Assembly: GCF_027595165.1 (NCBI RefSeq)
Contig: NZ_CP097291.1
Coordinates: 1,798,001 to 1,862,000, forward strand
From: Providencia sp. PROV188
GTDB taxonomy: Bacteria; Pseudomonadota; Gammaproteobacteria; Enterobacterales; Enterobacteriaceae
Reading direction: 5' to 3'
DNA length: 64,000 nt
Shown here: positions 37,055 to 48,181 of the stretch, piece by piece
How positions within the stretch are numbered: position 1 is the stretch's first letter
Layout of the letters: each line of letters begins with the position of its first letter
Program-made: the position numbers and the translations under genes
Notes under the pieces: generated by a model
The model's database searches: none
What the model was told of the DNA's origin: nothing
Seen by the model: the letters and a program-made list of their open reading frames with translations, nothing else

Positions 37055-37443
37055 TGATTTTCCTCATTCGGAAATTTAACTTATACAATAAGTCTAATAT
37101 TAGATTATATGTTTAGTCAATGGCTTTTTTGCTGTTTAAATGAACTAAAAATTTTCGTCAACTTGCCGATGATATCTGGGCAGATCAAGCTAAAAATGAG
37201 AAAGATTGTTATAGACAGCATTTTGCTCACAACGTCATACATTACTGATCAATCTTCCATAAACAGGCGGTATTTGAAGCAAGTGTTGGGAAAATAGCGG
37301 GGGAATAATTAAATTATTGGTATTTAATTCCAGATGAATAATTAAGCAATAAAGTTAAATAATCAGGAATAAGAATAATCAAATTGAGATGAACAACTAA
37401 AAATGATAAGAAGTTGTTATATAACTACATTTAGGAAATTAAC
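37055..37443. other. 389-bp intergenic region between ridA-like and yehI-like genes
   Basis: Promoter region for both divergent operons. It holds a 12-bp palindrome near the ridA side (37093-37104) and an inverted AACAACT / AAGTTGTT pair (37391-37417) close to the DUF4132 start. A 62-codon frame at 37109-37297 has no RBS and I do not accept it. Confidence 0.5.
37093..37104. promoter_or_regulatory. Perfect palindrome TCTAATATTAGA upstream of RidA operon
   Basis: 12-bp perfect dyad about 40 bp before the start of the RidA-type gene. Candidate operator for the DauR-like regulator encoded in the same operon. Confidence 0.4.
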
Positions 37444-40400
37444 ATGGCTAAAATTACCTTTGACCTTCTGGCTATTTATGGCGAAAAAGGGGAAACCGCA
37501 GGATTACAATATTTACAAGAATCCCTGCTTCCTTTTGCCGCATTTGAAGAAAGCTTACCCAAATCGCTCTTTGATTATGTCATTGAGGGTAAATCCCCTG
37601 AAATTCTCATGAAGCTGGGGCAGTTGGACAAAGAAAAAGCCACAATTTTGTTAGACAAACCGGGAACGGTTGATTGGTGGTGGGGAAGCCACAGTTTTGA
37701 TGCCGGCTCGTATAGCAAAGTGATCCGTCAAGGTAAAAATGCTCGCCATAAACTGTATTCTAAAGTGGGTGATGATATTACGCCCGCGCAGATCGCGCGT
37801 TTTGCTAAAGTACTCGCGTCCGCCTGCCAAGAGGTGAATATCAAAATTCTGACGCCAGAATTGCCTTCTTGGATGCTGTATTTACTGTGTGATGCATTTG
37901 TAACCACCTTTGAAAATTCACGCCATGCTAAATATGAACATCGTAAACATTGGAATTACGAGCTGCTCAGTCAGTTAGTGGAGAATGAAGCCGAACAACC
38001 GGGTAACACCGTGCTATACGGCATTTTTGATAGACAAAATCTGTCGGATTATCACTACGAAAATATGGCGTTATTATTCGCTATCCCAGGTTTAAAAGAA
38101 TATTTAATTGCTGAGCAAGATTTTATTCGCCAAAGCCTACTGAGCAATTTATCCGCTTGTGGTCAGATCCAATTGATCGACACGCTGAGAAAAGACGAAG
38201 CGCTGTATAGCGTGTTTGCCGATATTTTAGTGCTATTGGCAACCAGTTCACTGAAAACCGTGCGTTCAGCAGCTGAGCCAGTGATGTCTATTCTGCCGGA
38301 AGAAGCGGTTAAAACCCACTTAACCAAAGTGCTGCTTGAAGGAACGCCAAAACAACGTACGCAAGCGGCGGATCTGTTCGCCCGTATTGGTAAAGATCGA
38401 GATATTCTTGAAGCAGCGTTGAAAGTGGAGACCAACAAAACCGTCCTCAAGAGCATTGAAAGTGCGATTTCTCGCTTTGATGTGATGGATTGTGCGAGTG
38501 AAGTGGAAGAGGTCGAAATTCCAGAGATTATCCCGATGGAAGATACGCCACTACCAGAAAGCGCAGTCGATGTTTTGGTATCTAACTTCCGTGAAATGCT
38601 GCAAAAAGCCAAAGAAAATGCTGAGCGCGAACTGGAAGAAAACAAACAAGAAAAGCATAAATACACGTGGTCACAACGCCATTACAAAGAGTTCAGTCAA
38701 CACAGTGAAGACGAATGTGCTGGCTTATTAGCTAAACTAAACTCGGGTGTCGGAGTGATTACCGATCATGAATACAATGTCATTAAGCACAAAGAGCGCA
38801 TTAATAATTTACCGGAATTCACGCTATTCCACGCGTTGCGTTTGCTGAGTCATAACCGCTCTGATGTTGAGCATTTTTCTCACTATCAACTCACTCGTGA
38901 AGTTCCCGTTCGCATCTTATCGCAACTCGATTTACGTCAATTAGAAAAAGGGCTTGAGCAGTGCCATTTTAAAAATGCGAGTCGCTTAATTGCTGACTTA
39001 TGCCTGCGTTCATACAGTGATGGATTAGGGCTATTTAGAGCGCCGGAACAAATTTGGCCGTTCTTTATGCAGTACCCCGATTTCTTAAGTGAAGCGCTGG
39101 GGCTTATCCCGCAGCACCAAGGGCATCGTTATTACCAAGAGTATGATGCGTCTAATGCGGTAACCATTTTAGGTAAATACCCGACCATTCCGGCACGATT
39201 CATTCCTCGTATTATGGAGTTGGCGCTGGGTGAAAACAAAACTCACCGTTTAAGTGCTCAAAAATTGCTGGAAACCTTACCAAGCATTCACGTTAATGCG
39301 GCAGAAGGCCTTGATTCTGGTAAACAAGAGATCCGCGTTACTGCTATCGAATGGTTAGCTCGCTTAAAACATCCAGATTCACTAAAACCGCTGTACGCGT
39401 TGCTGAAAAAAGAGAAACGTGAAGTGGTAAGAGCCGCATTATTAACGGCATTAGAGCAATTTGGCGAAGATATTTCCGGTTACTTGGCACCGAAAGTTTT
39501 GTTGGCGGAAGCGCAAAAAGGCTTAAAAGCCAAAGCACCCGCGAGCATGGCATGGTTTGATTTGGACGCCATTCCAGCCATGACCTGGCAAGATAATAAA
39601 AAGGTGGATGCGGATATCATCCGCTGGTGGATCATTCTGGCGGTGAAATTAAAAATGCCGGCGGGTAATGGGCTATTACAGCGCTATATCAGCTTATTAT
39701 CATTAGACAGCCAGCGTAAGTTAGGTAGCTTTATTCTCAACAGCTTTATTAGCCAAGATGTGGCGGGACCATCACTGGAAGCGGCGATGGCGGAAGCACA
39801 AAGAGATGCGCCATCACGCTTGAAAAACTACCAAGATTGGCTAAAACGCTGGCCTGAATACTATGCCAAGTATGAAAACTTCACCCTTGAGCAGACCATC
39901 AACGAGATCAAAAACGAAGTATTAGGTCGTTATTTGGGCTCGGCTATCAGTGAAAAAGGGATGCTTGCGCTGATTTGTGGTGTGGAGGGACATGTTGCCG
40001 TAACCATGCTGCGTAACTATATGCGTGACCATTACCAGCGCCGTGCCCAAATTGAAGCGATGATTGACGCGATTGCCGTCAGTAACGATCCGCTGATCAT
40101 TCAGCTTTTATTATCATTATCGCGCCGTTATCGCACCGCATCAGTCCAAGAAAAAGCCCGCGGACTGGTGGCTGATATCGCGCAACGTAACGGTTGGAGC
40201 GCGGATGAACTGGCAGACAGAACTATTCCAACTGCGGGTATGGATGAAACGGGGACTTTAGTACTGGAATATGGGGATCGCACGTTTACTGCCAAGCTCG
40301 ATGCTCAGCAAAAACTGGTGCTATTTAACCCTGAAGGTAAAGAGATCAAAGCGCTGCCGGCGGCACGTAAAACCGACAACGAAGAGCTGATTAAAGAGTC

Positions 40401-41178
40401 GAAAAAACTCCTAACATCCAGCAAAAAAGAGCTTAAGCAAGTTATTGAATTACAGACTGCGCGTTTGTATGAAGCGATGTGTGCAGAACGTTTGTGGAGC
40501 ACGGCGGATTGGCAGGAATACATTCAAAATCACCCAGTGATGCGTGGTCTGATTGAACGACTGGTTTGGTTAGAAGTGAAAGATGACCAAGTGATCAACC
40601 AATTCCGTCCATCCGATGATGGTTGCTTGTTGAACCTTGATGACGATGAAGTCGAATTGAGCGCAGATTCCAGCATCAAGCTCGCTCATGCGGCGTTATT
40701 ATCAGACGCTGATCGTAAAGCGTGGATTGCTCATTTTAAAGATTACAAAGTCAAATTCCTATTCTCGCAGATGGATCACACCATTCCAGATCTGGCGTTA
40801 ACGCTCACGGAAATCGAAGATAGAAAAGGCTGGCTAACGGATACCTTCACCCTACGTGGCGTGTTAACCAAAATGGGTTATCAGCGCGGCCAAGCGGAAG
40901 ACGGCGGAAGCTTCTGTCATTACTTCAAATATTTCTCCAGCCTAGATTGCTATGTGTATATGGAATTCAGTGGTAGCTATGTCCCAGAAGAAAATATCCC
41001 TGCGGTGTTGTACTCCTTGAGTTTTGACCAAGCACAAAAAAGCTCGTGGGATAGAGGCTATGTGGAACTGAAAAACGTGCCGCCGATCCTGTTAGCCGAA
41101 AGCTATGCTGACTACCTGAAAGTCGCGGATGCCTGTAGCGGTTTTGACCCTGAATGGGAAAAGAAAACCCCGTGGTAA
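37444..41178 (+). CDS. yehI: DUF4132 / HEAT-repeat protein (YehI/MolR-like), first gene of the yeh cluster
   Basis: 1244 residues, near the size of E. coli YehI (about 1210). The N-terminal third is mixed; HEAT-like repeats are visible around residues 300-345 (TPKQRTQAADLFARIGKD) and 620-680 (KQEIRVTAIEWLARLKHPDS, EVVRAALLTALEQFGED). A coiled, charged segment (KAKENAERELEENKQEKHKY) lies near residue 390. The DUF4132 domain begins about residue 915 (GWSADELADRTIPTAG) and contains the conserved RLYEAMCAERLWSTADWQEY. No enzyme motif is visible. It is 37 bp upstream of the MoxR gene. E. coli relatives were once linked to molybdate response (MolR), but the function is not settled. Confidence 0.85.
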   Translation: MAKITFDLLAIYGEKGETAGLQYLQESLLPFAAFEESLPKSLFDYVIEGKSPEILMKLGQLDKEKATILLDKPGTVDWWWGSHSFDAGSYSKVIRQGKNARHKLYSKVGDDITPAQIARFAKVLASACQEVNIKILTPELPSWMLYLLCDAFVTTFENSRHAKYEHRKHWNYELLSQLVENEAEQPGNTVLYGIFDRQNLSDYHYENMALLFAIPGLKEYLIAEQDFIRQSLLSNLSACGQIQLIDTLRKDEALYSVFADILVLLATSSLKTVRSAAEPVMSILPEEAVKTHLTKVLLEGTPKQRTQAADLFARIGKDRDILEAALKVETNKTVLKSIESAISRFDVMDCASEVEEVEIPEIIPMEDTPLPESAVDVLVSNFREMLQKAKENAERELEENKQEKHKYTWSQRHYKEFSQHSEDECAGLLAKLNSGVGVITDHEYNVIKHKERINNLPEFTLFHALRLLSHNRSDVEHFSHYQLTREVPVRILSQLDLRQLEKGLEQCHFKNASRLIADLCLRSYSDGLGLFRAPEQIWPFFMQYPDFLSEALGLIPQHQGHRYYQEYDASNAVTILGKYPTIPARFIPRIMELALGENKTHRLSAQKLLETLPSIHVNAAEGLDSGKQEIRVTAIEWLARLKHPDSLKPLYALLKKEKREVVRAALLTALEQFGEDISGYLAPKVLLAEAQKGLKAKAPASMAWFDLDAIPAMTWQDNKKVDADIIRWWIILAVKLKMPAGNGLLQRYISLLSLDSQRKLGSFILNSFISQDVAGPSLEAAMAEAQRDAPSRLKNYQDWLKRWPEYYAKYENFTLEQTINEIKNEVLGRYLGSAISEKGMLALICGVEGHVAVTMLRNYMRDHYQRRAQIEAMIDAIAVSNDPLIIQLLLSLSRRYRTASVQEKARGLVADIAQRNGWSADELADRTIPTAGMDETGTLVLEYGDRTFTAKLDAQQKLVLFNPEGKEIKALPAARKTDNEELIKESKKLLTSSKKELKQVIELQTARLYEAMCAERLWSTADWQEYIQNHPVMRGLIERLVWLEVKDDQVINQFRPSDDGCLLNLDDDEVELSADSSIKLAHAALLSDADRKAWIAHFKDYKVKFLFSQMDHTIPDLALTLTEIEDRKGWLTDTFTLRGVLTKMGYQRGQAEDGGSFCHYFKYFSSLDCYVYMEFSGSYVPEENIPAVLYSLSFDQAQKSSWDRGYVELKNVPPILLAESYADYLKVADACSGFDPEWEKKTPW

Positions 41179-41215
41179 TCATTGATTAATCGACGCATAA
41201 ATTTAGGAAACCAAC

Positions 41216-42325
41216 ATGGCTAAGGCGAAACAAGTAACAGAAGGCGTTCTGCGTGAAAGCGCAGAAGTGCGCTTTGCGGATGAATTAGAACGATTAACCC
41301 AAGCGGATAAAGGCAACCCTAAACCACAAGGTTGGCTACGTTCCCCGCGGGCGGTACGTCAATTTATTCTTGGGGATGAGGCACTGCAAATTACCCCTAA
41401 ATTTTTTGGTGACGATGCGCTGGTTGATCGCGCCATTGTGACCTTACTGGGTAAACAAGGGTTAATGCTGGTGGGGGAGCCTGGTACGGCGAAATCCATG
41501 CTGTCCGAGTTATTAGCGGCGGCGATTAGTGGTGACTCAGGTTTAACCATTCAAGGCACGGCGGGTACCACAGAAGACCATATTAAATATTCGTGGAACT
41601 ACGCGCTGCTACTGGCGGAAGGTCCTACAGAAAAAGCCTTAGTGAGTTCACCGCTCTACCAAGGAATGCAACAAGGTAAAATTGTGCGCTTTGAAGAGAT
41701 CACTCGCTGCCCACCTGAAATTCAGGATGTGCTGGTTAGCATGATGTCAGAAAAGCAAATGATGATCCCTGAGATGAAAGATAATGCACGGATCAGCGCC
41801 AAGTCAGGCTTTAACTTGATTGGTACTGCCAACTTACGTGACCGCGGTGTGCATGAAATGTCATCGGCACTTAAGCGTCGATTTAATTTCGAAACCGTCA
41901 AACCCATTCAAGATCCGGCATTTGAAATTGAACTGATCAACAAACAACTGACTGTTGAGCTTGGCGAGCTGGATGGCAAAGTGACTGTCCCAACGGACGT
42001 GATCGAATTATTAGTCACGACTTTTCAAGAATTACGTTCAGGCAATACCAAAGATGGCGGGAGCATCAAAACCCCAGATGCGGTGATGTCTACGGCAGAA
42101 GCAGTTAACATCGCCTATGCCTGTGCATTGGAAGCTCACTATTTGGGGAATGGAACACTGAACGCAGGCGCTGTCGCGCGTCAGCTGATTGGTGTGGTAC
42201 TCAAAGATAATGCGGATGATATCAAACGGATGCGTTATTACATTGATAATGTTGCCCGCGAACGTGCGAAACAGAGCGAAGCATGGAAAGCCTTTTTCGA
42301 TGCATCCCGTGAATTCTGGCAATAA
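41216..42325 (+). CDS. yehL: MoxR-family AAA+ ATPase YehL
   Basis: 369 residues. Walker A GEPGTAKS (87-94), Walker B IVRFEEIT (156-163), sensor 1 LIGTANLRDRG (201-), and the SALKRRF arginine segment (~217-223). MoxR-type AAA+ proteins form hexameric rings that work with VWA partners to remodel proteins or insert metals, as in NorQ/NorD, CbbQ/CbbO and magnesium chelatase. The VWA partner is encoded two genes downstream. RBS: AGGAAACCAACATG. Confidence 0.93.
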   Translation: MAKAKQVTEGVLRESAEVRFADELERLTQADKGNPKPQGWLRSPRAVRQFILGDEALQITPKFFGDDALVDRAIVTLLGKQGLMLVGEPGTAKSMLSELLAAAISGDSGLTIQGTAGTTEDHIKYSWNYALLLAEGPTEKALVSSPLYQGMQQGKIVRFEEITRCPPEIQDVLVSMMSEKQMMIPEMKDNARISAKSGFNLIGTANLRDRGVHEMSSALKRRFNFETVKPIQDPAFEIELINKQLTVELGELDGKVTVPTDVIELLVTTFQELRSGNTKDGGSIKTPDAVMSTAEAVNIAYACALEAHYLGNGTLNAGAVARQLIGVVLKDNADDIKRMRYYIDNVARERAKQSEAWKAFFDASREFWQ

Positions 42326-42388
42326 TATCCGTCGTCGCAGTGTGGTGGTAAATACATCGCCACACTGTCCCTATGAGAGACATCATCG

Positions 42389-44962
42389 GTGAGTTTATCA
42401 ACGATCACATTGCAACACATCACATTGCCGGAACGGCTACAAAATGCCCTTGAACAGTGGCAAAGGCTAGGAGAGCATCAGCTCTATTTTGCGCCTGTTC
42501 GTCATCATAGCCCCGCCTGTGCTTATAGCGTATTGAGCTTAATTGAGCAGGTTAAGCCTGACTATGTGCTGATAGAAGGTCCTGACAGTTTTAACCCATT
42601 AATCGCGGGTTTATTGGATGGCGATACACGTCCGCCCGTGGCGATTATGGGGCAGACTACCTTGAAAAGTGCGCCTACTGAATCAGATGAAAGTGACGCT
42701 GTCACGCGATCGGCGTATTTCCCATTTTGTGAATATTCCCCTGAGTGGCAAGCGTTACGCGTAGGGCAGCAGCATCAAGCTCAACTGCGTTTTATTGATT
42801 TGCCGTGGACAGCACAGGTGGAACTTGATCTGGAAGGCGAAAGCCAGCATCAAAGCCTGCAACGGGAACGCTACCTTGCCCATAGCTTATTTATTGCTCA
42901 GTTAGCGAAAAAGTGTGGGTGCCGTGATCATGATGAACTGTGGGAACATTTGTTTGAGTTGCGCCCATTAACGTCGGTTGCCAATTGGGCTGATTTCTTC
43001 CGCGATACCTTTATTTGGTGTGCCTTGGCGCGTTTAGATTACGAGCCAGAAGTACTGGCTTCGGAGGGTTCAACTCAGCGTGAAGCCCATATGCAAGCGC
43101 ACATTCAAACCATTAAAGCGGCAGAGCCAAACGCGAAAATTGTGGTCGTGACGGGCGGGTTTCATACCTTGGCACTGCTTGAAGGGCTTGGTAAAGCGGC
43201 GTCGCAGCAATTTAAACTCTCTTCCGAGCAACAAAAGCAATTTATGGCTCAGCAAAAGTTGGCAGACCGTGACAGCGCTTGGCTTATCCGTTATAGCTTT
43301 GACCGGCTTGATGCGTTAAATGGTTATGCCTCCGGCATGCCTTCGCCAGCCTTTTATCAAAAAGTGTGGGAAGGGTTGCTGGCACAACGCACTGATCAAG
43401 CTCAGCAAAAAATGACTGCTACCGCGGCTTATCGAAATCAGCTTGGTATTCAATTTTTGGCTTACGTGGCTGAAGTGTTACGGGAAAAGCAATTTGATGC
43501 AGCGCCAGGGTTTTTATCTGTTAAGCTCGCCGCAGAGCAAAGTCTGAGACTTGCCGTATTTCGTGGGCACACGGGCGCGGGTCGCTATGATCTATTGGAT
43601 GGGCTGCAAAGTGCGTTTATCAAAGGCAGCTTAGATGAAAGCCAAGATGAACTGTGGCAGCAAATCAAAACCTGTTTTTCTGGTTTTACCTTGGGGCAGA
43701 TTCCTAAAGGAACCATCACACCGCCATTGGTTTCTGAAACCTATTCATTGGCGAAAGGCTTTCGCTTCAAATTGGACGATACTTTAGCCAAAGTCAGCCG
43801 CTTAGATGTATACCGTAATAAGCAGCACCGTTTACGCAGCCGTTTTCTGCATCTTTTGAGTTTTTTAGAAATCCACTTCGCCAAACCGCTTTCTGGTCCC
43901 AATTTTCTTTCGGGCAACCAGCTGGATTTACTGTTTGAAGAGTGGCAATACGCGTGGACGCCAAATGTGGAAGGGGAGCTGATCGCGCTTTCTGAAAAAG
44001 GCACGCAATTAAAAGCCATTGCACTGAATAAAATTTTGGCGATGGAAAAGCAACTTGAAGAGCAAGGTGTCAGCCGTTCCAGCCAAAGCGCGGTGACATT
44101 GCTAATGCAAGCGGCATTGATTGGGCTTCATCAGCGTATTCCAACGTTATTTACGTTATTAGATAGCTATATTCAGCAAGATAGTCAGTTTGAATCATTG
44201 GTGACCTGTGGTCATAAACTGGTACACCTATGGCGCGGGCGTAGTTTCTTTGACCTCGAAGATGAAACGGGCATCAAACAGCGGATTGATAAAGTACTCT
44301 CCCAGGCCTTTTTCTGCTTAGATCAGGTGGCTCAAGGGGATGAACAGCAACAAGAACACTATTTTAATGCGTTACTGTCTTGCCGTGAATTAATCACCTT
44401 TATGCCTGAAATTAGCTGCGATATGGATTATTCCGCAGAATTTTATGCACAATTGAGCCGGTTGGATGGGCGTCTTAATCACGCACCGCTAATTAAAGGG
44501 GCGGTGGATGCTATTCGTTATCTTGGTGGTCAAATTGATGAATCGGTACTGACCGAGGAAATTCAGCGAACGTTCAGTTTAGGTAGCGACCCGGAACTGG
44601 CTATCGGTTATTTCATTGGCATTATGCGTACCGCACCGGAATTGGTTGTGCGTTTACCCCTATTAATTGAGTTACTCAATGAACTGTTGAGTGAGTGGGA
44701 TGATGGACGTTTCTTGCAAGTATTGCCGGATCTGCGCTTTGCGTTTAGCCAATTAACCCCGAAACAGAATGCGCAAATGGCGCGGGTGGTCGCGCAAAAA
44801 TTATCGATGGATATCCAAGATTTAACTCTCCATCAGACACAATTCAATCAGCAACAATTACTCCAAGCCATGGAACTCGAACAAAAAATTCAGCTTCAGC
44901 TTGAAAACCAAGGGTTAACTGAGTGGTTTTCGTTGCAAAATGAGGGGCTATCTCATGGATAA
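42389..44962 (+). CDS. yehM: DUF5682 family protein YehM
   Basis: 857 residues, cytoplasmic, longer than E. coli YehM (about 760). GTG start with GAGAGA 8 nt upstream. The N-terminal domain has the conserved block YFAPVRHHSPACAYSVL (residues 33-49), then DYVLIEGPDSFNP (58-70), and a later VVVTGGFHTLALL (about 252-264). The order H-motif, E-motif, G-x-H motif recalls the TraB/TIKI/ChaN-type fold, a putative metal hydrolase; this resemblance is my inference. The C-terminal half is helical. The gene overlaps the VWA start by 8 nt. Confidence 0.86.
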   Translation: MSLSTITLQHITLPERLQNALEQWQRLGEHQLYFAPVRHHSPACAYSVLSLIEQVKPDYVLIEGPDSFNPLIAGLLDGDTRPPVAIMGQTTLKSAPTESDESDAVTRSAYFPFCEYSPEWQALRVGQQHQAQLRFIDLPWTAQVELDLEGESQHQSLQRERYLAHSLFIAQLAKKCGCRDHDELWEHLFELRPLTSVANWADFFRDTFIWCALARLDYEPEVLASEGSTQREAHMQAHIQTIKAAEPNAKIVVVTGGFHTLALLEGLGKAASQQFKLSSEQQKQFMAQQKLADRDSAWLIRYSFDRLDALNGYASGMPSPAFYQKVWEGLLAQRTDQAQQKMTATAAYRNQLGIQFLAYVAEVLREKQFDAAPGFLSVKLAAEQSLRLAVFRGHTGAGRYDLLDGLQSAFIKGSLDESQDELWQQIKTCFSGFTLGQIPKGTITPPLVSETYSLAKGFRFKLDDTLAKVSRLDVYRNKQHRLRSRFLHLLSFLEIHFAKPLSGPNFLSGNQLDLLFEEWQYAWTPNVEGELIALSEKGTQLKAIALNKILAMEKQLEEQGVSRSSQSAVTLLMQAALIGLHQRIPTLFTLLDSYIQQDSQFESLVTCGHKLVHLWRGRSFFDLEDETGIKQRIDKVLSQAFFCLDQVAQGDEQQQEHYFNALLSCRELITFMPEISCDMDYSAEFYAQLSRLDGRLNHAPLIKGAVDAIRYLGGQIDESVLTEEIQRTFSLGSDPELAIGYFIGIMRTAPELVVRLPLLIELLNELLSEWDDGRFLQVLPDLRFAFSQLTPKQNAQMARVVAQKLSMDIQDLTLHQTQFNQQQLLQAMELEQKIQLQLENQGLTEWFSLQNEGLSHG

Positions 44963-46115
44963 GCAGCCAGAAGATGCGCAATTAACCGAAGAACAACTTC
45001 AATTAGCAAAACGCTGGCGCCTTATTTTAGGCCAATATGCGGATGGCGCTCTGGGGCAAGCGGCGCTAAATGGCGATGAGCTCAAAATCGAACGGTCATT
45101 GGATTTTTTATATCGACGTGAATATCAACGTCGCGGTTTACGCCAAGAAGGCGGACGTCATGGCTCGCTAGATGCGTCCCAATTGACGGCGGTTAACTGG
45201 CTGAACCAAGCCCGTAAATTGTTCCCGAACAGCACCTTTGAGCGAATGCAGTCGCAGGCATTAGAGCGTTATGAAATTAGTAGTTTATTAAAAAGCCCGC
45301 AAGCCTTGAATGCAATGGAGCCCACCAAAGCCTTAGCTAAATCGTTATTAAGTTTACGCGGTAAAATGAGCGAAGATACGCGGGATGCGGTGAAGAATAT
45401 TATTCGCAAAGTGGTGGATGATATTTTAAGCCAGATGCGAAACCAATTTCGCCAAGCGTTAACAGGGCGTCGTAACCGCTTTAAGCGATCGCTACTCCCT
45501 AATAGCCGTAATTTTGATTGGCGAGCTACTATTGCTGCGAATTTAAAGAATTATGATCAACAAAATCAGCGCCTAGTGATTAAAACCCCGTATTTTAACT
45601 CCCGCCAGCAACAGCACTTGCCGTGGGATGTGATTTTGTGCGTCGACCAAAGTGGCTCGATGGCGAGTTCGATTATGTATGCGGCGGTGTGCGCCAGTAT
45701 TTTAGCGGCATTACCGACAGTACGTGTCTCTTTGGTGGTGTTTGATACCCAAGTGGTGGATCTCAGTCATTTAGCCCACGATCCGGTGGAAGTATTAATG
45801 ACCGTGCAGCTCGGCGGGGGAACCGATATCGCGAAAGCGATGCATTATTGTGAAAGCTTGATCCGCAACCCGAAACGCACGGTGATTTCGTTGATCAGCG
45901 ACTTTGAAGAAGGCGGGGCATTGAATAATCTGCTCAATTGCACCGAGCGCTTGAATAGCCAGCAAGTGAAATTGTTGGGATTAGCCGCTTTAGATGATGA
46001 TGCATTGCCGGTTTATGATACGGAAATTGCCCAGAAGCTGGCGGATCGCGGTATGAGTGTGGCGGCGTTAACCCCAGAGCATTTTGCTCACTGGCTGGCT
46101 GAGGTGATGCAATGA
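44955..46115 (+). CDS. yehP: VWA-domain protein YehP (CoxE-like)
   Basis: 386 residues from ATG 44955, which has GAGGGG 7 nt upstream; ATG at 44940 is less well placed. N-terminal helical region (1-200) and C-terminal VWA domain with a complete MIDAS: D231-x-S233-x-S235 (VDQSGSM), T290 (GGGTDIA) and D316 (SDFEEGG). Partner of the MoxR ATPase; VWA proteins of such pairs carry the substrate-binding role. It overlaps the upstream gene by 8 nt and the downstream gene by 4 nt, showing tight coupling. Confidence 0.92.
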   Translation: MDKQPEDAQLTEEQLQLAKRWRLILGQYADGALGQAALNGDELKIERSLDFLYRREYQRRGLRQEGGRHGSLDASQLTAVNWLNQARKLFPNSTFERMQSQALERYEISSLLKSPQALNAMEPTKALAKSLLSLRGKMSEDTRDAVKNIIRKVVDDILSQMRNQFRQALTGRRNRFKRSLLPNSRNFDWRATIAANLKNYDQQNQRLVIKTPYFNSRQQQHLPWDVILCVDQSGSMASSIMYAAVCASILAALPTVRVSLVVFDTQVVDLSHLAHDPVEVLMTVQLGGGTDIAKAMHYCESLIRNPKRTVISLISDFEEGGALNNLLNCTERLNSQQVKLLGLAALDDDALPVYDTEIAQKLADRGMSVAALTPEHFAHWLAEVMQ

Positions 46116-48181
46116 GTTGGAAAACCGTTTATTTACATTATGATGACGACGCATTGGCCGTATTTGCCAACATCGGGTTGCTGCGCCGCGCCCGTAAGGA
46201 TCTGGAAAGTGGTAAAGTTTCTCCGGTTTGTTTAGCGAATGGAACTTTTACCAGCGATGGTCAGCAAGTCACGTTAGATCCTCAAGGGGTGCAAAAAGCC
46301 AGCTGCGATTGTTCGGCCTCGGGTTGCTGCAAACATATTCTGGCCGCGGTGCTTTGGGTACAAACAAACAGCGATGAACAATCGATTGATTCTACAGAAG
46401 ATAGTTCAGAATCTGTCGATATTGAACCACTATTACCCGAGTTGCTGGCATTCGATGTTCCCGCATTAATCAAGCAAAACAGTAAGCCAGATTGCCGCTT
46501 GGCAGTGAAGATCTTACAGGATTGGCAAGATCATGCAGTGATCTTGGATGACCAATCGAATCAGCTGAAAATCACGATCCCCAATTATGATGAGCCAATT
46601 ATCTATATTCGGGGGAATGGCTTTCAAGGGATGCTGTCGTCATTACCGGAGAAGCAGCAAAAAGCCCTCCATTTGGCAGCGGTCGCTAAGGTATTTCTTC
46701 AGCATAACCAGTCGTGGAGTTGGCCTGATGATCTGATGCCTAACCGCGAGGTCACGCTAGCATTGAGCGACGATGAGCAAACGGTGATTGCGACTATCCA
46801 GCGTTTTATTCACGATATGCTGCGTCAGGGGCTTTCTCATATAAGCCAAAGCAGTGCTGCGCAATTACATTTATTGAATATGTCGGCGCGTGCGGAAGGT
46901 TTACCTCGCTTAGCCAATTATTTAAAGCGTTTAAGCTATCAAGTGAAATTATTAGCCCAGCGCCATTTCACGATAGATGAAGGGCAAGTATTGCGGTTTA
47001 TCGCGCAGATCAGAGGCTATCTTTACCAATTAACTCACGCCAGCGACGATAAAATTGCGCAATTGCGCGCTTTTGGTCGTCGTCAATATGACAGTAAAAC
47101 GGACATTCTCTCTTTGATCCCAATCCATGCCGAGTGGTGGCAAACTCAAAGTGGCGCCATTGGGGGAACGTTTAGTTTTTGGGATAACCAAGAGAAAAAA
47201 GTGGTGCAGTGTAGCCAAGCACGCGCCAATACCCTCGACTCGAATTTCACCCGTCACAGTGTCTGGCAAACGCTAGCCATTTGGAAACAAACGGCAGATA
47301 ACCTGATGCGCAGTGGTTTTGAATTGCACAATCCACGCTTATCCGATGAGGGCAAACTTGCTGCTAGCGGCGATAGTTATGCAATCAGTCGCAGTGCAGT
47401 TAGCCAAGCGCCGCACATTTCATTCGATGATTACCAAGCATTGAAAAGTGAGCTGGGATTTGAGGATTGGAAAGCGGCAACGACCTATTTCAATGCGCTC
47501 ACCGATGATGCTCAGTTTGAGCCTGCTGTGCTACATATCGATAGCTACGAACCGCTACATTGGAATGAAATCGAGCAGTGTGTCAGTTGGACTGTGCTGG
47601 ATGGAAACCGGAATCGGGCATTTTTGCGATTAAATTGGCAAGGCACAGAAAATCACAAAATTGAAGAACTGCGTTTTATCACTCAGAAAGGTTGGGAAAT
47701 TAGTGCGGTATCCGTTCAAGTAAGCGTCTCTCAGCAACAATTACAACTAACTCCGAAAACACTCTGGTTGAAAAAAGAGCAGGGTATTGAGCTGTTTTAC
47801 CTCGATTTTGAATCAGTACCTCGTAAAAAACAGTCTTCCAAGTTTATGACGTCGATTGCTGAATATATGGCGAAAAAGCAGCAAGACCGCACAGCATTTG
47901 CGCCAGTGCCAACACTGGCACAGCAGATTACCCGTCCAATCTTGGCGGTATTGGAAACGCAAAGCTGTACAGGGCGCGCACAGTTATCCGCGAGTCAAAT
48001 TGACGAGTTAAACTTTGTGGTCAGGACATTGCACGACTTGGGGATGTTATGGTTTGCTAAGCAACTGGTGCATTACGTAAAAAAGGAAAATCAAACCGCC
48101 GAAAATTTACTGCGCTTGGTGTATCTTTGCGACCAATTTGAGCGTTCGCAAAAATTGATGCCTTTTGAGTTGAATAGCTAA
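46112..48181 (+). CDS. yehQ: SWIM zinc-finger protein YehQ
   Basis: 689 residues. SWIM motif C-x-C-x5-C-x-H at C65, C67, C73 and H75 (SCDCSASGCCKHILAAVLW), predicted to bind zinc and mediate nucleic-acid or protein contacts. An acidic stretch follows (SIDSTEDSSESVD). The remaining ~550 residues are of unknown fold. It starts on the ATGA overlap with yehP and is the last gene of the unit. Close in size to E. coli YehQ (about 660). Confidence 0.88.
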   Translation: MSWKTVYLHYDDDALAVFANIGLLRRARKDLESGKVSPVCLANGTFTSDGQQVTLDPQGVQKASCDCSASGCCKHILAAVLWVQTNSDEQSIDSTEDSSESVDIEPLLPELLAFDVPALIKQNSKPDCRLAVKILQDWQDHAVILDDQSNQLKITIPNYDEPIIYIRGNGFQGMLSSLPEKQQKALHLAAVAKVFLQHNQSWSWPDDLMPNREVTLALSDDEQTVIATIQRFIHDMLRQGLSHISQSSAAQLHLLNMSARAEGLPRLANYLKRLSYQVKLLAQRHFTIDEGQVLRFIAQIRGYLYQLTHASDDKIAQLRAFGRRQYDSKTDILSLIPIHAEWWQTQSGAIGGTFSFWDNQEKKVVQCSQARANTLDSNFTRHSVWQTLAIWKQTADNLMRSGFELHNPRLSDEGKLAASGDSYAISRSAVSQAPHISFDDYQALKSELGFEDWKAATTYFNALTDDAQFEPAVLHIDSYEPLHWNEIEQCVSWTVLDGNRNRAFLRLNWQGTENHKIEELRFITQKGWEISAVSVQVSVSQQQLQLTPKTLWLKKEQGIELFYLDFESVPRKKQSSKFMTSIAEYMAKKQQDRTAFAPVPTLAQQITRPILAVLETQSCTGRAQLSASQIDELNFVVRTLHDLGMLWFAKQLVHYVKKENQTAENLLRLVYLCDQFERSQKLMPFELNS

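Follow-up and report, generated by a model that had tools for sequence, protein, structure and literature searches.

What is the function of a bacterial operon that combines a MoxR-type ATPase and a VWA protein with three further conserved proteins? The operon in question occupies positions 37444..48181 (+) of a 64,000-nucleotide stretch (the window; all positions refer to it) of the chromosome of Providencia sp. PROV188 (NZ_CP097291.1, positions 1,798,001 to 1,862,000). The answer that we favour, with somewhat less than even confidence, is that the MoxR and VWA proteins form one ATP-driven, NorQD-like motor, whose target for remodelling or switching is the DUF5682 protein encoded next to it; a HEAT-solenoid protein and a SWIM protein would be its adaptors, and it would act perhaps under stress. 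Two results were missed by the original prediction, which had been made from the letters of this DNA: a TIKI-like domain in the DUF5682 protein, the main new result, and a sister form of the operon bearing DUF5691.

Open reading frame (ORF) calling resulted in five co-directional genes on the + strand of a Providencia-like chromosome, joined by small gaps or overlaps. The genome has 4.02 Mb, and the nearest relatives of its DUF5682 protein are from Providencia. The first gene (37444..41178, +) encodes an adaptor-like solenoid protein of 1244 aa with HEAT_2 and DUF4132 matches in Pfam, the counterpart of Escherichia coli yehI. It is followed by a MoxR-type AAA+ ATPase of 369 aa (41216..42325, +; AAA_5, E 1.5e-35; yehL counterpart), a DUF5682 protein of 857 aa with a GTG start (42389..44962, +; E 5e-100; yehM counterpart), a VWA_CoxE protein of 391 aa (44940..46115, +; E 9.8e-48; yehP counterpart), and a SWIM zinc-finger protein of 689 aa (46112..48181, +; 21.4 bits versus a cut-off of 19.6; yehQ counterpart). 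In NCBIfam, every match to the five proteins was far under the cut-off. The original prediction had described HEAT repeats and DUF4132, which Pfam confirmed, and one unit with gaps of 37 and 63 bp followed by overlaps of 8 and 4 nt. Both gaps (genes 1-2 and 2-3) and the 4 nt overlap of the VWA and SWIM genes were recovered; the 8 nt overlap of the DUF5682 and VWA genes requires the ATG at 44955, whereas the first ATG (44940) gives 23 nt. The G+C content is 0.45-0.48 in the operon, versus 0.36-0.44 upstream and 0.40-0.46 downstream.

Relatives were found in several bacterial phyla and in E. coli. When GTDB contigs were scanned for the motifs, at least 593 matches were obtained, at least 576 of them relatives; the best 80 loci were retained, a sample biased toward the relatives of the window. 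A DUF5682 ORF was present in 79 of them (all except L109), and in 59 of these 79 each flank exceeded 8.5 kb, the other 20 being left out for short flanks. With small seed-built profiles (E 1e-6), all five families were detected together in 57 of the 59 well-flanked loci. This clustering is far beyond chance, and the five genes, proposed as one unit in the original prediction, are a real, conserved operon. The two exceptions hold MoxR and DUF5682 only (L068) or DUF5682 only (L067). Together with L081, which has less than 8.5 kb on one side, these loci without the full set come from a Blastocatellia metagenome-assembled genome and two Planctomycetaceae ones; DUF5682 may be used alone there, or its partners may be too divergent to be seen.

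The phylum draw, a less biased sample, contained 14 strong loci besides the window. All five families were present in six loci (L023-L027 and L029), and six others (L017-L022) harbor SWIM, DUF5691, MoxR, DUF5682, and VWA, with DUF5691 replacing DUF4132. Additionally, L028 is cut by a contig end, and L030 has two DUF4132 ORFs, MoxR, DUF5682, and a VWA ORF running to the end of the stretch, SWIM not being seen. From these different gene sets, the core is taken to be MoxR-DUF5682-VWA-SWIM plus one of two helical proteins, DUF4132 or DUF5691. For the latter, Pfam gave confirmation in L017 and L022, and a local profile detected it at 35-77 bits in the other four loci. The two forms look related in their SWIM and helical proteins too: in profile comparison, the SWIM proteins matched at 93% (E 3.2e-7) and DUF5691 matched DUF4132 at 56% (E 1.1e-4, an alignment of 81 columns within the HEAT region), whereas unrelated pairs gave E 0.11 or worse.

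The N-terminal domain of the DUF5682 protein (aa 20-335 as used in profile comparison; 42446..43393, +) resembles the TraB/ChaN/erythromycin-esterase (TIKI) superfamily, a likeness supported by computation, and the whole protein looks like such a domain joined to a helical solenoid. Its profile matches to ChaN and TraB exceeded all shuffles, the top match being the ChaN family (Pfam name Cofac_haem_bdg), and moderate structural matches were obtained to EreC and 3b55. The motifs H-E-R-GxxH are invariant across 91 DUF5682 sequences. Motif 1 (PVRHHSP, aa 36-42; 42494..42514, +) carries H39, which pairs in the alignment with the motif 1 His of ChaN/TraB; E63 (motif 2; 42575..42577, +) is aligned to the Glu of ChaN/TraB; R231 in motif 3 (R-E-x-x-M, aa 231-235; 43079..43093, +) pairs with the R that never varies in the TraB set; and motif 4 (GGFH, aa 256-259; 43154..43165, +) corresponds to the GxxH of TraB/ChaN. 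The residues H39, E63, R231, G256, and H259 are all invariant and aligned to the invariant H86, E112, R282, G305, and H308 of the TraB set. These and the following conservation counts use one sequence per locus, with hits below chosen score limits dropped, including the DUF5682 of L026, L028, and L030; the L026 protein retains the motifs in a separate alignment.

The 2His/2Glu site of the erythromycin-esterase type was considered and rejected: such a site has its first Glu two positions ahead of the first His, where this protein has V37, and the protein was not filed as an esterase for this reason. A lid-like stretch (43424..43684, +) gave a hint only, its hhalign match to MoxR being 0.9% (E 0.064). 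By sequence, the DUF5682 profile matched only coiled coils and a noelin chain in the PDB. Chain 7w5z_E could not be named, as the TraB and ChaN profiles gave no match to it, and the ChaN structure 2g5g was not among the 50 structural matches listed for DUF5682, an absence that we do not count as evidence. The open-access (PMC) literature, a scope outside which subscription papers and preprints fall, yielded no mention of DUF5682, three papers that mention DUF4132, and, among the papers listed, none on yeh gene function. In several public records, Enterobacterales DUF5682 proteins (P0008, P0011, P0058, P0059, P0065, and others) are named '4-aminobutyrate aminotransferase'; this looks like a spread misannotation because their precomputed Pfam domain is DUF5682 alone.

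The Walker A/B, MIDAS, and C-x-C-x5-C-x-H motifs of the original prediction are present and conserved across relatives. In the MoxR protein, every position of Walker A (GEPGTAKS, aa 87-94; 41474..41497, +) except E88 is kept in 93-100% of 88 sequences, and R158, E160, and E161 of Walker B (IVRFEE, aa 156-161; 41681..41698, +) in 88/88. Both motifs and the VWA gene two genes downstream assign it to the MoxR AAA+ proteins; by sequence, its match in the PDB was midasin. The VWA protein is of the CoxE type, having the VWA_CoxE domain and a MIDAS that starts with DQSGS (aa 236-240; 45645..45659, +) and continues with T295 and D321; D236, S238, S240, T295, and D321 occur in 87/87 sequences. Each residue of the SWIM motif C65-x-C67-x5-C73-x-H75 (46304..46336, +) is found in 97% of 75 sequences. 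Against the PDB by sequence, the VWA protein had no match and the SWIM protein matched a single designed coiled coil (E 0.035). The C-terminal profile of DUF4132 retrieved sulfotransferases at E 0.013 and above, which were not trusted, and for the stretch 40804..41154 (+) inside the DUF4132 gene, Foldseek by itself gave no match under E 0.001.

These parts support the reading of the MoxR and VWA proteins as a machine, which the original prediction had offered. A hexamer of MoxR would form a motor with the VWA protein, on the pattern of NorQ and NorD; the VWA protein would dock on the MoxR ring and grip the client via its MIDAS. For NorQD, the available part of PMC13036017 describes a VWA finger that enters the ring and a linker that is twisted and stretched by ATP turnover, opening the client. 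The client or partner would here be the adjoining DUF5682 protein, with its hydrolase-like TIKI/TraB/ChaN domain (conserved His, Glu, and second His) on a helical solenoid; we infer this role because of the gene order and because no other neighbour is conserved. ATP turnover would open, load, or switch the DUF5682 domain, the SWIM protein and the HEAT/DUF4132 protein (in the sister form, DUF5691) may deliver the substrate, and the machine would probably be active under stress. MoxR-VWA motors are widespread, and no named client was found for the YehL branch; if DUF5682 is a TIKI-fold hydrolase, the client question can be addressed directly in E. coli K-12. DUF5682, DUF4132, and DUF5691 would then also gain their first function, and the presence of molR, which we take to be yehF-yehH, in lists of the SOS regulon would perhaps be explained. 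A bolder version, which we consider unlikely, is a new ATP-dependent hydrolase machine, possibly a protease, in which the MoxR-VWA motor controls the TIKI-superfamily site of DUF5682. Its substrates would be brought by SWIM and by HEAT solenoids that can replace one another (DUF5691, or DUF4132, of which there are often several copies), and the E. coli set would be induced by DNA damage. If true, such a machine would join Clp, Lon, and FtsH among the AAA+ machines, but with another catalytic fold.

The same motor could serve as a chaperone for cofactor or metal insertion, like CoxD/CoxE or NorQ/NorD, opening a metalloenzyme encoded elsewhere, such as a molybdoenzyme, while DUF5682 would bind rather than catalyse, as ChaN may. 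The CoxE type of the VWA protein and the ChaN family as best profile match point this way, as does the title of a reference in PMC8533742, according to which molR is needed for molybdate use. However, no client gene adjoins the operon recurrently. The flank survey covered 274 tiled ORFs from up to 78 loci, with eight near-duplicate loci and ORFs above 900 aa excluded; 133 ORFs were chosen and 107 aligned and scanned, some of which may be spurious owing to the mechanical tiling. No Pfam family occurred in more than 3 of the 107, and no client metalloenzyme was recognised among the 19 flanking ORFs of the window, so that the same-locus client of NorQD and CoxDE has no equivalent here. Moreover, Deinococcus moeA and moeB were unchanged on DdrO depletion in the available text of PMC8533742, and we regard the chaperone as a doubtful explanation. 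A damage-response complex that processes nucleic acids, with SWIM/WGR parts binding DNA or RNA and the motor remodelling a repair protein, appears quite improbable. It would agree with the LexA lists and with the control of relatives by DdrO. It would also agree with WGR domains in L026, L028, L030, and L061, where they are fused to DUF4132 or lie next to it or to the operon, as with yehF in E. coli. The Pfam scan of the five window proteins found neither WGR nor any domain of a nuclease, polymerase, or helicase, and the remaining loci that were scanned showed no WGR.

An anti-phage or other conflict system, one of the roles kept open by the original prediction, is weakened by our results and seems rather unlikely. 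Its distribution would suit it, being patchy (PF18934 in 14 of the 398 phylum-draw genomes, a count that includes the genome of the window, and in 18/24 genus genomes), as would the two or three DUF4132 ORFs of more than 600 aa in 19/59 loci and the faster divergence of SWIM (29-63% identity to the window in seven loci), DUF5682 (39-76%), and DUF4132 (44-78%) relative to MoxR (66-91%) and VWA (57-92%). DUF5682 also matched 34 of 72,556 plasmid records, several of them chromosome-sized; the 4-5 Mb records H1, H2, H7, H8, and H9 look like chromosomes, which inflates the plasmid counts of the operon. Against this, PADLOC-DB 2023 had no family for the five window proteins at E 0.01, and 107 flanking ORFs matched 19 of its models with 8 names, each with one member only (E 1e-10; no control set accompanies this count). 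The gene-order survey that the original prediction had called for upheld the co-conservation of the five genes but brought no recurrent neighbour: no defence gene was recognised among the 19 flanking ORFs of the window in the Pfam scan, and no flanking family was shared. A single weak match was obtained in 50,697 phage records, and a viral scan with one close query confirmed nothing. The loci keep the same five families in 57/59 cases, with no swapping of effectors. The MoxR tree (FastTree, 74 rows) covered the loci from L032 on and did not include the DUF5691 form. It needs 7 changes of phylum label, where the minimum is 5 and shuffled labels average 26.8; the tree mostly follows phyla, which fits mostly vertical descent with loss.

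The region before the operon was also inspected for regulatory sites. A promoter-like element, AATAATCAAATTG, lies at 37374..37386 (+), and ATAATCAAATTG is exact in 7/9 upstream stretches aligned with MAFFT, the window included. The near-palindrome GTTGTTATATAACTAC (37413..37428), read from the sequence just 5' of the first gene, is a possible operator; it holds no exact LexA box, none was found in the window, and LexA control of the window was dropped because of this. A one-mismatch LexA-like site was observed about 30 bp 5' of the first gene in four Proteus loci, one Xenorhabdus locus, and L027. Over the loci, 14 LexA-like sites were counted versus 7.0 expected, five being one site in close relatives, and no general claim on LexA is made for that reason; the Gram-positive and alphaproteobacterial site forms were not above expectation. 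In E. coli K-12, the LexA-like CTGGATAAAATTACAG (L112:6450-6465) ends 9 bp 5' of yehF, which by sequence alone proves nothing because about 10 one-mismatch sites are expected by chance in that 35 kb. E. coli molR appears in LexA-regulon lists in the available parts of PMC3978071, PMC11039860, and PMC4576408, so the link of the yeh genes to molybdate, as originally given, was incomplete. The available text of PMC8533742 reports that DUF4132 and WGR proteins of D. radiodurans rise with mitomycin C in an IrrE-dependent manner.

The operon of the window is flanked upstream by divergent RidA-like and PALP genes and downstream by MarR, EamA, and 2OG-Fe(II) oxygenase genes. The RidA, PALP, MarR, and EamA genes also adjoin the operon in the Providencia loci L032 and L033 and were not detected in 7 further loci that were checked.

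Among known systems, the yeh cluster of E. coli K-12 is the counterpart that the original prediction had named, with the same five families in the same order. It differs by an additional WGR gene (yehF), the pseudogene yehH, the small yehK, and the LexA-like site before yehF, its order being yehF, yehH, yehI, yehK, yehL, yehM, yehP, yehQ. The E. coli records of the plasmid collection are 51-52% identical to the window in MoxR (yehL), in the same operon context, and 27-30% in DUF5682 over about 70%. NorQ/NorD and CoxD/CoxE likewise pair a MoxR AAA+ protein with a MIDAS-bearing VWA partner, whereas the window has three further conserved proteins, one of them hydrolase-like, and no client enzyme recognised nearby. 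RavA/ViaA is the other MoxR-VWA pair of E. coli, and the window VWA protein bears a trace of PRK10997 (ViaA), at 20 bits versus a cut-off of 500. We know of no DUF5682, DUF4132, or SWIM beside RavA/ViaA. RavA and YehL belong to different MoxR subfamilies according to the available part of PMC3893208.

The MoxR-vWA ternary conflict systems share the MoxR and vWA core with the window, as far as the available part of PMC7159879 describes them, and the likeness seen by the original prediction found no support beyond this pair. The Pfam bpMoxR match was below its cut-off (24.9 versus 27); no VMAP, iSTAND, FtsH, or beta-propeller was among the Pfam matches, no search with dedicated VMAP or iSTAND profiles having been made; and the VWA protein carries no fused effector. 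The systems of PMC7159879, whose main text does not contain SWIM, TraB, or YehL, are recognised there by repeated effector displacement in a fixed context, whereas the same five families persist in the loci studied here. Finally, the N domain of DUF5682 is like the TIKI/TraB/ChaN/erythromycin-esterase superfamily in profile and H-E-R-GxxH order and perhaps also in fold, and it is set apart by an HH doublet, the missing first Glu, a long fused solenoid, and its place in the operon of an AAA+ motor.

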